39,905 nt of DNA, taken from NCBI GenBank assembly GCA_903826635.1, contig CAIKFI010000053.1, positions 1 through 39,905 on the forward strand. Direction: 5' to 3'. Shown piece after piece: positions 5,655-15,946 of this stretch. A program made the position numbers and the translations under genes. The notes below the pieces were generated by a model that was not told the origin of the DNA, ran no database searches, and saw only the letters and a list, made by a program, of their open reading frames with translations. The DNA is from an uncultured Spartobacteria bacterium. Lineage in GTDB: Bacteria; Verrucomicrobiota; Verrucomicrobiia; Chthoniobacterales; UBA6821. Each line of letters opens with the position of its first letter. Position 1 is the first letter of the stretch.

Positions 5655-6446
5655 ATGAAGATGCGATCCCTATTCACCAAGTCGCCGCTGCTAATCCTTG
5701 CGACACTAATCCTCCCTAGCCAGGCCCATGCATCCTCGGGTGTCGTCCTCCAGTCGAACGATTTTGTCGGCATGTCATTCTGGCTCATCTCCATGGCCCT
5801 TGTGGCTTCAACAGCCTTCTTCTTCCTTGAGACCCAGCGTGTTGCTGGGAAGTGGAAGACCTCGCTCACAGTCTCCGGACTCGTGACCTTGGTTGCGGCG
5901 GTACACTACTTCTATATGCGCGAAGTCTGGGTGACCACTGGTCAGACCCCAACGGTCTACCGCTACATCGATTGGCTTATCACCGTGCCTCTCCTGATGG
6001 TTGAGTTCTTCCTCATCCTCTCGGCTATCACAAAGGTGCCTGTCGGTGTCTTCTGGCGTCTTATGCTGGGCACCTTGGTCATGCTGGTTGGTGGATATCT
6101 CGGTGAAGCACACTACGTTGCCGCCTTGCCGGCCTTCATCGTTGGCATGCTTGGTTGGGCCTATATCCTCTTTGAAATCTTCTTTGGAGAGGCTGGTAAG
6201 ATCAATGCTCAAAAAGCTCCTCCCGCCGTGCAGTCTGCCTTCAACCTGATGCGTCTCATTGTCACCTTCGGTTGGGCCATCTATCCGATCGGATACTTTG
6301 TCGGTTACCTCACGGGAGCCAATCCTGAGGAGAGCATGAAGGGGCTCAATATTGTCTACAATCTGGCCGATGTGCTGAACAAGATCGCCTTCGGTGTCAT
6401 TATCTGGGCGGCAGCTGTCAGCGAGACAGAGGCCCACGCCAAGTAA
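5655..6446 (+). CDS. Proteorhodopsin, green-tuned outward proton pump
   Basis: This is a 263-residue seven-helix microbial rhodopsin with a cleavable-looking signal sequence ending near SQAHA. Helix C reads YRYIDWLITVPLLMVEF. D106 is the counter-ion and proton acceptor, T110 the middle residue, and E117 the proton donor, giving the DTE motif of proton-pumping proteorhodopsins. H84 matches the conserved His75 partner of the acceptor. L114 is at the tuning position 105 of marine proteorhodopsin, where Leu means green absorption. K243 in NLADVLNKIAFG carries retinal by a Schiff base. It sits in the cytoplasmic membrane and would generate proton motive force in light. Downstream genes supply retinal. 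F161 fills the place of the glycine that opens the carotenoid-antenna window in xanthorhodopsin. No clear Shine-Dalgarno precedes ATG 5655. Confidence 0.97.
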   Translation: MKMRSLFTKSPLLILATLILPSQAHASSGVVLQSNDFVGMSFWLISMALVASTAFFFLETQRVAGKWKTSLTVSGLVTLVAAVHYFYMREVWVTTGQTPTVYRYIDWLITVPLLMVEFFLILSAITKVPVGVFWRLMLGTLVMLVGGYLGEAHYVAALPAFIVGMLGWAYILFEIFFGEAGKINAQKAPPAVQSAFNLMRLIVTFGWAIYPIGYFVGYLTGANPEESMKGLNIVYNLADVLNKIAFGVIIWAAAVSETEAHAK

Positions 6447-14662: not shown

Positions 14663-14908
14663 AGGTGCCTTTTGGTGCCCTTAAAAATAGGAAAACCATA
14701 ACTTTTCTAGATTCGGTGCCCCCTCGAGCAGCGTCATGGCGAAATGGGAAAGATCCCAGATGACGAGGTGAGGGGAGCCATCCAGCGGATCCTTACAAGG
14801 AAAAGAATAATGCCATCTGAAGGGATCCAGACACCTCTTTGACGAAGGGAGTTGGGTCTCTCTTGCCATAGCCGGTAAAATCGGTATTTTGAACTTTCGA
14901 TTAGTCAC
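14663..14908. other. Intergenic stretch before tRNA-Thr
   Basis: I see no convincing gene here. Segments such as GGAAAGATCCCAGATGACGA look like worn repeat DNA. The tRNA promoter is presumably in the last 60 bp, but no clear -35/-10 pair stands out. Confidence 0.3.
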
Positions 14909-14984
14909 GCCGCTTTAGCTCAGTTGGTAGAGCATCTCATTCGTAATGAGAGGGTCGCCGGTTCGAATCCGGCAAGCGGCTCCA
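14909..14984 (+). tRNA. tRNA-Thr (anticodon CGU)
   Basis: The acceptor stem GCCGCTT (14909-14915) pairs with AAGCGGC (14974-14980). The D-arm is AGCTCAGTTGGTAGAGC and the T-arm contains GGTTCGAATCC. The anticodon stem TCTCA/TGAGA encloses the loop TTCGTAA, giving anticodon CGT, which reads ACG. The discriminator is T and CCA is encoded at 14982-14984. Its last 19 bases are the start of a long duplicated segment downstream. Confidence 0.95.
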
Positions 14985-15051
14985 TCAACTCTGGAGGAGT
15001 TTGATGAAGCGCCGGAGTCGAACCGAGGTTCGACTGGAATGCCGCGATCAG
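14966..15051. repeat. Direct repeat unit 1, including the tRNA-Thr 3' end
   Basis: These 86 bp are identical to 15107-15192. The unit starts inside the T-arm of tRNA-Thr and includes its acceptor strand and CCA. It also carries an imperfect hairpin at 14983-15006 (CATCAACTC with GAGTTTGATG) and a perfect palindrome GTCGAACCGAGGTTCGAC at 15017-15034. The 55-bp spacer after it (15052-15106) holds a third hairpin, CCCTCCT-GCA-AGGAGGG, at 15088-15104. Confidence 0.92.
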
Positions 15052-15106
15052 CGGCACAAGAGATGAGCGCTAAGCGAAGAACCAGAGCCCTCCTGCAAGG
15101 AGGGAT

Positions 15107-15192
15107 AATCCGGCAAGCGGCTCCATCAACTCTGGAGGAGTTTGATGAAGCGCCGGAGTCGAACCGAGGTTCGACTGGAATGCCGCGATCAG
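15107..15192. repeat. Direct repeat unit 2
   Basis: Perfect 86-bp copy of 14966-15051, 141 bp downstream. It carries a duplicate of the tRNA-Thr 3' end (AATCCGGCAAGCGGCTCCA) without the rest of the tRNA. It ends 17 bp before the end of the convergent PAP2 gene. The pattern could be an attachment-site duplication or a tandem duplication of a structured tRNA flank. Confidence 0.92.
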
Positions 15193-15208
15193 AATCAATC
15201 GAGAGGAA

Positions 15209-15946
15209 TCAAGACCCCGTCAGTGTTGGATTCTTATCTCTCGTTAAAAATGAGTTGGTCCAGTAAGTGCAACTGATTCCGACCAATGCTCCTGCAAGCA
15301 CATCACTGATAAAATGGTAGTTGAAAACGACCATCAGGATGCCCTCGATCGCCCCGATGGCAATGCAGAAGGGGAGTAACTTACGGCAGACCAGGCCGAT
15401 GGGAATCATGCAGGCGAAGGCCACCGCGGTGTGACCCGAAGGGAATGCCGACAACGTTTCGTCGCCTTGAAAGGGAAGTCCTTTGAACCATTGGAATCCA
15501 TAGGCGTGATTGCCGATCAAAGAGAGTTTACCGTGGATCCACGTTAAGGGCCAATACCTGCCAAAGACCCACTTGAGGTCATTCTTGAGGAGAAAGGTGA
15601 AGAGGATGCTGAATCCCAAAAGGATCAGAAAATCCTTTGTTTTCCCGCGGTTCAGAAAGACGGCGACGACAAGAAGAAAAGGAGCCAGACCTGTCATGAT
15701 GGTTGGCCAATCCGCGATGGTGTATCTGAGTTTATCAGCTTCGTGGGAGGGCGGGAGGGGCTGGATCTTTTTTGTTGGATGGGCATCCCTTACCAAGTGG
15801 CCAAGGGTCGTGATTCGGTCATGCCAATGATGGGCCTCCACATACGAGCAGACCGGTCGGTCGACAAAGCAGTAGCTGAAGCCGATGGCAATGATCATCA
15901 GGATCCAGAGGCGTAGAAGCGGTGACATGGAAGGCAAGGAAATCAC
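15209..15946 (-). CDS. PAP2-family membrane phosphatase
   Basis: This is a 245-residue membrane protein with about five or six hydrophobic helices. The three phosphatase signature regions of the PAP2/haloperoxidase superfamily are present: KWVFGRYWP, PSGHTA, and NYHFISDVLAG, which carries the catalytic His and Asp. Such enzymes remove phosphate from lipid phosphates such as undecaprenyl diphosphate or phosphatidic acid on the outer face of the membrane. The substrate cannot be told from sequence. Start alternatives are ATG 15946 and a Met six codons later. It is read convergently toward tRNA-Thr and shares its strand with uvrC. Confidence 0.85.
   Translation of the reverse strand: MISLPSMSPLLRLWILMIIAIGFSYCFVDRPVCSYVEAHHWHDRITTLGHLVRDAHPTKKIQPLPPSHEADKLRYTIADWPTIMTGLAPFLLVVAVFLNRGKTKDFLILLGFSILFTFLLKNDLKWVFGRYWPLTWIHGKLSLIGNHAYGFQWFKGLPFQGDETLSAFPSGHTAVAFACMIPIGLVCRKLLPFCIAIGAIEGILMVVFNYHFISDVLAGALVGISCTYWTNSFLTRDKNPTLTGS

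Follow-up and report, generated by a model that had tools for sequence, protein, structure and literature searches.

A duplicated threonine tRNA end in an uncultured Spartobacteria bacterium is one member of a family of small folded elements behind many tRNA genes

Background

The tyrT repeats of Escherichia coli (RtT RNA; Rfam RF00391) have long been known and are poorly understood. The tyrT/tyrV region contains four units, each ending in an exact copy of the tRNA-Tyr tail, AATCCTTCCCCCACCACCA (19 nt, 19/19). The units carry GGGGAAGGATGAGAA..GGTTCGACT..AGTAATCCTTCCCCCACCACCA, together with GGGGAAGG(A/G)TGAGAA.. and GGTTCG(A/G).., and the annotated rttR RNA extends from +8 after tyrV to +178, which is the last base of the duplicated tail. 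A modulating effect of the released RNA on the stringent response has been reported in E. coli. The 3′ETS of leuZ is another stable RNA that is cut from a tRNA precursor trailer, and it has neither a duplicated tRNA tail nor the four-helix fold of the family described below. RtT copies are reported near tRNA-Asn and tRNA-Lys in Pasteurellaceae, with Northern signals (PMC4986893), and a tandem-GA motif has been described in RtT (Rivas 2020, PMC7657543).

Two other kinds of repeat invite comparison. A resemblance between BIMEs and rtT has been noted (PMC2965389), and REP and BIME sequences are, like the present family, short structured repeats with many copies per genome. Unlike them, the family lies nearly always behind tRNAs and carries a tRNA tail, and the genome studied here has no Y1 (RAYT-type) transposase; mobilization of the Y1/REP (IS200/605-REP) kind was rejected for want of such a resident enzyme. 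The attachment sites used by prophages and islands in tRNA genes share with the family a direct repeat that stretches from the T loop as far as the 3′-end of the tRNA, whereas the insert of the family is about 120 bp (within a unit of 141 bp), non-coding, conserved in fold, arranged in tandem and matched to the tRNA.

The window is a 39,905-nt stretch of contig CAIKFI010000053.1, from an uncultured Spartobacteria bacterium (GCA_903826635.1) whose genome assembly comprises 2.12 Mb in 182 contigs. An original prediction, made from the letters of the window, drew attention to a perfect 86-bp duplication of a tRNA-Thr 3′-end and suggested a small tRNA-borne mobile or regulatory element. The duplication is one member of a family of small folded elements that lie behind many tRNA genes.

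The threonine tRNA locus

The tRNA-Thr(CGT) gene, with its CCA encoded, occupies positions 14909–14984 of the forward strand, on which all features given here lie (ARAGORN; RF00005, 73.8 bits), and tRNA was the only Rfam family found above threshold. Just 5′ of the gene is a promoter-like site, TTGCCA-16-TATTTT (14863–14890), identified by a consensus scan only, and no terminator-like site is present between 14700 and 15400, hence none between the tRNA and the unit. Direct comparison bears out the exact identity of 14966–15051 and 15107–15192 (86 bp) across a 55-bp spacer, with a start-to-start distance of 141 bp; the bases flanking the two copies are unlike on either side (TCG/GAT and CGGCA/AATCA). 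From its start in the T loop (nt 58/59), the repeat extends beyond the encoded CCA. The natural unit, overlooked in the original prediction, is 141 bp long and consists of a linker (14985–15010), an antisense strand, P2, a core hairpin, P4 and a second copy of tRNA nt 59–76. The tRNA is followed by one complete unit and by one truncated unit, the truncation likewise having escaped notice.

The first copy of tRNA nt 59–76 (DR1, ATCCGGCAAGCGGCTCCA) lies at 14967–14984, and the second (DR2), identical to it at 18 of 18 positions, closes the complete unit at 15108–15125; the terminal tail copy as a whole is identical to the tRNA tail over 19 of 19 nt. At and just past the CCA is a linker hairpin, CATCAACTC/GAGTTTGATG (14983–15006), whose arms begin at 14983/14997 and recur at 15124/15138. 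The 5′ strand of P1, GCCGGA (15011–15016), runs antisense both to the T stem of the tRNA and to its copy at 15109–15114. P2 is the hairpin GTCGAACC-GA-GGTTCGAC (15017–15034), in whose 3′ arm the T-loop word GGTTCGA is repeated; the palindrome GTCGAACCGAGGTTCGAC occurs at 15017 and 15158, with 4 matches (≤3 mismatches, both strands) against 0.05 expected. Most family units flank P2 with tandem GA, as GGAT-GA-GAAC..GTTC-GA, and the window copy has GTC..GAC pairs at that place. The 5′ strand of P3, CTGG (15034–15037), finds its partner CCAG at 15082–15085, and between the two stands the core hairpin, TGCCGC-GATCA-GCGGCA (15040–15056). P4, CCCTCCT-GCA-AGGAGGG (15088–15104, arms 15088/15098), is the hairpin that had been seen in the spacer. 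The original prediction was right about the linker hairpin and the palindrome of each unit and about the spacer hairpin, and it missed the fourth, the core hairpin, the part that the family conserves best.

The region is much more stably folded than its shuffles (z = −5.1), a value to which the two identical copies contribute in part. The second unit (15126–15192) is cut off inside the core hairpin and is without the 3′ strand of P3, P4 and a direct repeat of its own, so that it is unable to form P1, P3 or P4. The sequence after the truncation, 15193–15210 (AATCAATCGAGAGGAAT), is similar to the tail of a decayed tRNA-Ser(GCT) unit (locus L020, AATAATCGAGAGGAAT), and the two share a junction.

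Distribution and association with tRNA genes

A search of the same genome found the same architecture behind tRNA-Thr(TGT), with the tail of that tRNA, and a decayed copy behind tRNA-Ser(GCT). The core TGCCGCGATCAGCGGCA (≤1 mismatch) is present at 55 places in 15 of 16 genus genomes, a few of which are chance matches outside any unit (L082, L108, L122), and the reversed control pattern gave 0. Inspection of the loci places the unit downstream of tRNA-Thr, Ser, Ala and Glu in the sense orientation. A covariance model built from the family alignment (R1) was used to scan genomes and extends this range to 85 places in all 16 genus genomes and to 35 of 197 genomes of the order Chthoniobacterales (Verrucomicrobiota), which belong to several families and carry up to 12 units each. 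The possibility, raised at the outset, that the unit occurs only here and in constant number does not hold: it is found throughout the genus, and its copy number varies. Two further R1 places lie elsewhere in the class, beyond the order; at one of the two, L220, the unit follows tRNA-Ser(CGA) and its tail matches at 18/18. In a genome of the same class outside the order (G430), locus L218 holds a single, convincing unit near which no tRNA was detected.

The host group of the family is freshwater bacteria. In a named collection the core matched 24 stretches, every one of them in a metagenome bin. Of these, 20 bear the label Spartobacteria, Chthoniobacterales or Verrucomicrobia; three others, though labelled Proteobacteria, come from a genus member (G003), and the one labelled Micrococcales is contig C128 of genome G015. 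Viral contigs gave 0 matches to the genus core. A 6.3-kb IMG/VR contig (L251) carries at 5843–5863 an RtT-like unit that contains GGATGAGAACCTTGGTTCGAC and has a tRNA-tail copy at its flank; the contig resembles a filamentous phage in having Zot-like and replication-like reading frames, judged by eye.

Of the units read, 122 in all, 95 follow a same-strand tRNA whose end is less than 500 nt upstream, and between them these tRNAs represent 16 isoacceptors and nine amino acids (Thr, Ser, Ala, Glu, Pro, Tyr, His, Leu and Asn). By comparison, an upstream tRNA on the opposite strand was seen for only 4 units and a downstream tRNA in the sense orientation for 9. The remaining units are at contig ends, beside degenerate tRNA pieces, or neither. 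Every unit has at its end a copy of nt 59–76 of its own local tRNA and at its start a strand antisense to it. The unit end agrees with its own tRNA at a mean of 15.7 of 18 positions and is exact in 47 of 95 cases, as against 10.2 (maximum 10.8) when the tRNAs are permuted, and the longest antisense run between the P1 5′ strand and its own tRNA is 6.4 as against 4.7 (maximum 5.0), above all permutations.

Relationship to the tyrT repeats

The family shares with the tyrT repeats the signature GGATGAGAA..GTTCGAC..AATCC, as well as architecture and location. In both, the units lie directly 3′ of a tRNA on the same strand, stand in tandem, and finish in a duplicate of the tRNA tail (19 nt in E. coli; 18–19 here); in both, a start strand antisense to the T stem (E. 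coli GGGGAAGGAT) is followed by GATGAGAA, GGTTCGACT and AATCC. The middle of the unit differs, in that the family has the core TGCCGC-GATCA-GCGGCA and the P3 pairing CTGG/CCAG. Unlike RtT, moreover, the family is found within one order behind tRNAs for nine amino acids, each unit being matched to its own tRNA.

Searches in both directions agree with this resemblance, at low scores. The best four R1 matches in a 2.1-kb E. coli region are exactly the four units of the tyrT operon, at 15–17 bits (E 0.001–0.004), which is weak in that significance is lost genome-wide and the shared letters are partly those of the T arm, as expected of any tRNA-tail repeat. The RF00391 model gives no match to the window copy even at E≤10; the Rfam cut-off is 45 bits. 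Its best match in 17 related genomes, at 39.8 bits (E 3e-6) and thus below that cut-off, lies in the trailer of a tRNA-Ser(TGA) of the same order (G027) and has a tRNA-tail copy differing at one base. Two weak RF00391 matches in the genus overlap R1 units, and in another genome (G008) a single tRNA-Glu is followed by a family unit and then by an RtT-type unit. Judged by its architecture, the family is of the RtT/tyrT kind, below the Rfam threshold, a kinship that the original prediction did not see. In the literature surveyed, the coverage of which is incomplete, we found no description of RtT as a family matched to the local tRNA or as occurring in Verrucomicrobiota.

A conserved fold

When applied to a MAFFT alignment, RNAalifold recovered only the core hairpin, and the structure was then set by hand; covariation was therefore judged with shuffles and slides. 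In an alignment of 122 distinct units (A2), which was fitted to the hand-set structure and is hence biased towards it, double changes occur in 26 of 28 pairs, with 531 such cells as against 165 after shuffling (0/500) and at most 117 when the partners are slid. The MAFFT alignment, which was not fitted to the model, has 94 double-change cells against 34 shuffled. P3 illustrates the pattern, CTGG/CCAG being replaced by CTGC/GCAG or CGAC/GTCG in other members. This covariation means that the single strand of the unit is under selection to fold, whether as RNA or as DNA.

A two-state tRNA switch, in which the 5′ acceptor strand of the tRNA sits on the distal tail, was considered for 53 loci (0.85 vs 0.00 in partition-function folding). 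Shuffled unit bodies behave alike (0.80 vs 0.04), so that the signal stems from the duplicated tail and from the energy model and is no evidence for a switch. With the second tail removed, real bodies disturb the predicted tRNA more than shuffled ones do (acceptor 0.13 vs 0.44; T stem 0.24 vs 0.73), and with respect to a decoy role, the proximal T stem stays low (0.19) when the tail is added back. Since the antisense strand of a unit lacking the second tail disrupts the predicted tRNA fold, co-folding of the unit with its tRNA may not be benign. Integron attC and hammerhead readings were rejected on by-eye comparison with the consensus.

A model for the window unit

The reading that we favor, with a confidence of 0.68, takes the window feature for an RtT-like trailer that is transcribed along with its tRNA and then set free as a structured RNA of about 134 nt ending in the duplicated CCA. 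The unit would be transcribed together with tRNA-Thr, as the promoter-like site upstream and the lack of a terminator-like site before the unit suggest. The RNA would fold into a closed form of four helices, namely P1, P2, P3 with the core hairpin, and P4, in which P1 would be made by the strand antisense to the tRNA T stem pairing with the duplicated tRNA tail. Cutting at or near the CCA of the tRNA and at the duplicated CCA would then yield a mature tRNA and a stable RNA, predicted by analogy with E. coli rttR to span 14992–15125. The 86-bp identity would most likely go back to a tandem duplication of the unit like that in tyrT, with subsequent truncation of the second copy. We infer co-transcription, processing and any role of the released RNA from E. 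coli.

Gain, loss and inheritance of units

The number of units at the tRNA-Thr(CGT) locus ranges from 0 to 2 between species, in keeping with the copy-number variation that the original prediction had suggested looking for. Two genomes (G001 and G006) have an empty sequence in which CTCCA passes directly into GCTTTT; the same GCTTTT flank is preceded by one unit in G012 and by two complete units in G002. Two complete units are also present in G007, one unit and remnants in G004 and G011, and one complete and one truncated unit in the window. The empty site shows that units are gained and lost; an enzyme that would mobilize them was not found. The description of a small tRNA-borne mobile or regulatory element has thus stood as regards a tRNA-borne family with a conserved fold behind many tRNAs, and as regards gain and loss at one tRNA-Thr locus, while active mobility and regulation are putative.

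So clean an empty site also speaks for a different reading, which we consider unlikely, namely that the unit is a non-autonomous mobile element homing to the tRNA T loop. Such an element would insert at GGTTCGA^ATCC (nt 58/59), its fold (as ssDNA or RNA) would be recognized by an enzyme acting in trans, and arrays would be built by repeated insertion; the tRNA would remain functional because the element brings or duplicates nt 59–76. The recurrence of one architecture with a local tail behind tRNAs for nine amino acids is in its favor, as is the variation of core types among units of a single array. The same holds for the left part of the window unit, which is 0.87 like that of G002 although its core is of another type, so that cores can be replaced, and for several degenerate tRNA-Ser, Glu and Thr copies in which the core stands directly in the T loop. 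Against homing, cores seem mostly to be inherited along with their locus: when the closest counterpart of a core is sought in other genomes, it stands at the same isoacceptor in 28 of 42 cases (left parts, 32 of 42). The direct repeat is not of fixed length (18 to about 24), the units are without terminal inverted repeats of their own, Y1 transposases number 0 in the window genome and are found in 2 of 16 genus genomes, and no close transposition event across loci was found. Spread between tRNAs must nevertheless have occurred, and local tandem duplication is the best account of the arrays.

Several loci show further rearrangement. At L095, L106, L087, L100 and L116, an intact tRNA-Ser(CGA) or Ser(GGA) is preceded by degenerate tRNA-Ser copies in which the core falls exactly in the T loop. 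A second dispersed repeat (GATTCGCTCGC..CCCGCTCGGCTC..TATCCGG..CCCA..GGCCACGTATTG) has inserted into several units, at a place that separates P2 from the core, and also into a degenerate tRNA-Ser (L098, L102, L107, L120, L087 at about 850–930, and L081). In G012, a gene pair judged HipA-like by eye lies between two tRNA-Glu-type unit groups, beside a hemB-like gene (L088, 1130–3625), and this stretch is possibly an island in tRNA-Glu.

Attachment sites and assembly

It is very improbable that the duplication is the scar of a phage or island that integrated into the tRNA and kept its 3′-end as the att core. A repeat running from the T loop over the tRNA 3′-end is what many att sites have, and the inovirus-like contig L251 bears a similar unit flanked by a tRNA-tail copy; yet the same structured body of about 120 bp stands behind many tRNAs with different att letters, the body covaries, and no integrase was found among the neighboring proteins tested (DUF3422, PAP2, UvrC-like and two without a Pfam match). 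The family-wide conserved fold largely refutes this reading, and the opinion of the original prediction that the locus differs from an ordinary attachment-site duplication is one we share.

A functionless local tandem duplication or an artefact of metagenome assembly can hardly be entertained, for although the assembly of a sister locus breaks off within its second unit, as is usual for assemblers at tandem repeats, G002 and G007 have two complete units at the same tRNA-Thr and the fold is conserved across the order. The sister locus in question is behind tRNA-Thr(TGT) of the window genome (contig C89, L019), where the copy number is therefore a lower bound, and other arrays may be under-assembled too.

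Implications for RtT elements

The RtT-like trailer that we favor for the window unit can be set within a wider and distinctly doubtful proposal, according to which RtT elements in general, E. coli tyrT included, would be tiny structured mobile elements that home to the tRNA T loop, carry or copy the tail of the tRNA that they enter, and use their antisense strand for aiming. If this were true, the entered tRNA would stay whole and a tRNA-tailed RNA would be released. To our knowledge, the tRNA tail in each E. coli tyrT repeat has gone without an explanation for decades. The family described here offers many natural replicates in another phylum; they lie behind tRNAs for nine amino acids, fit the tRNA that they follow, and come with empty sites and changes in copy number. 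With them, three old questions can be put to the test, namely the need for the tail in processing, a possible action of the antisense strand on the tRNA, and the way in which the units spread.
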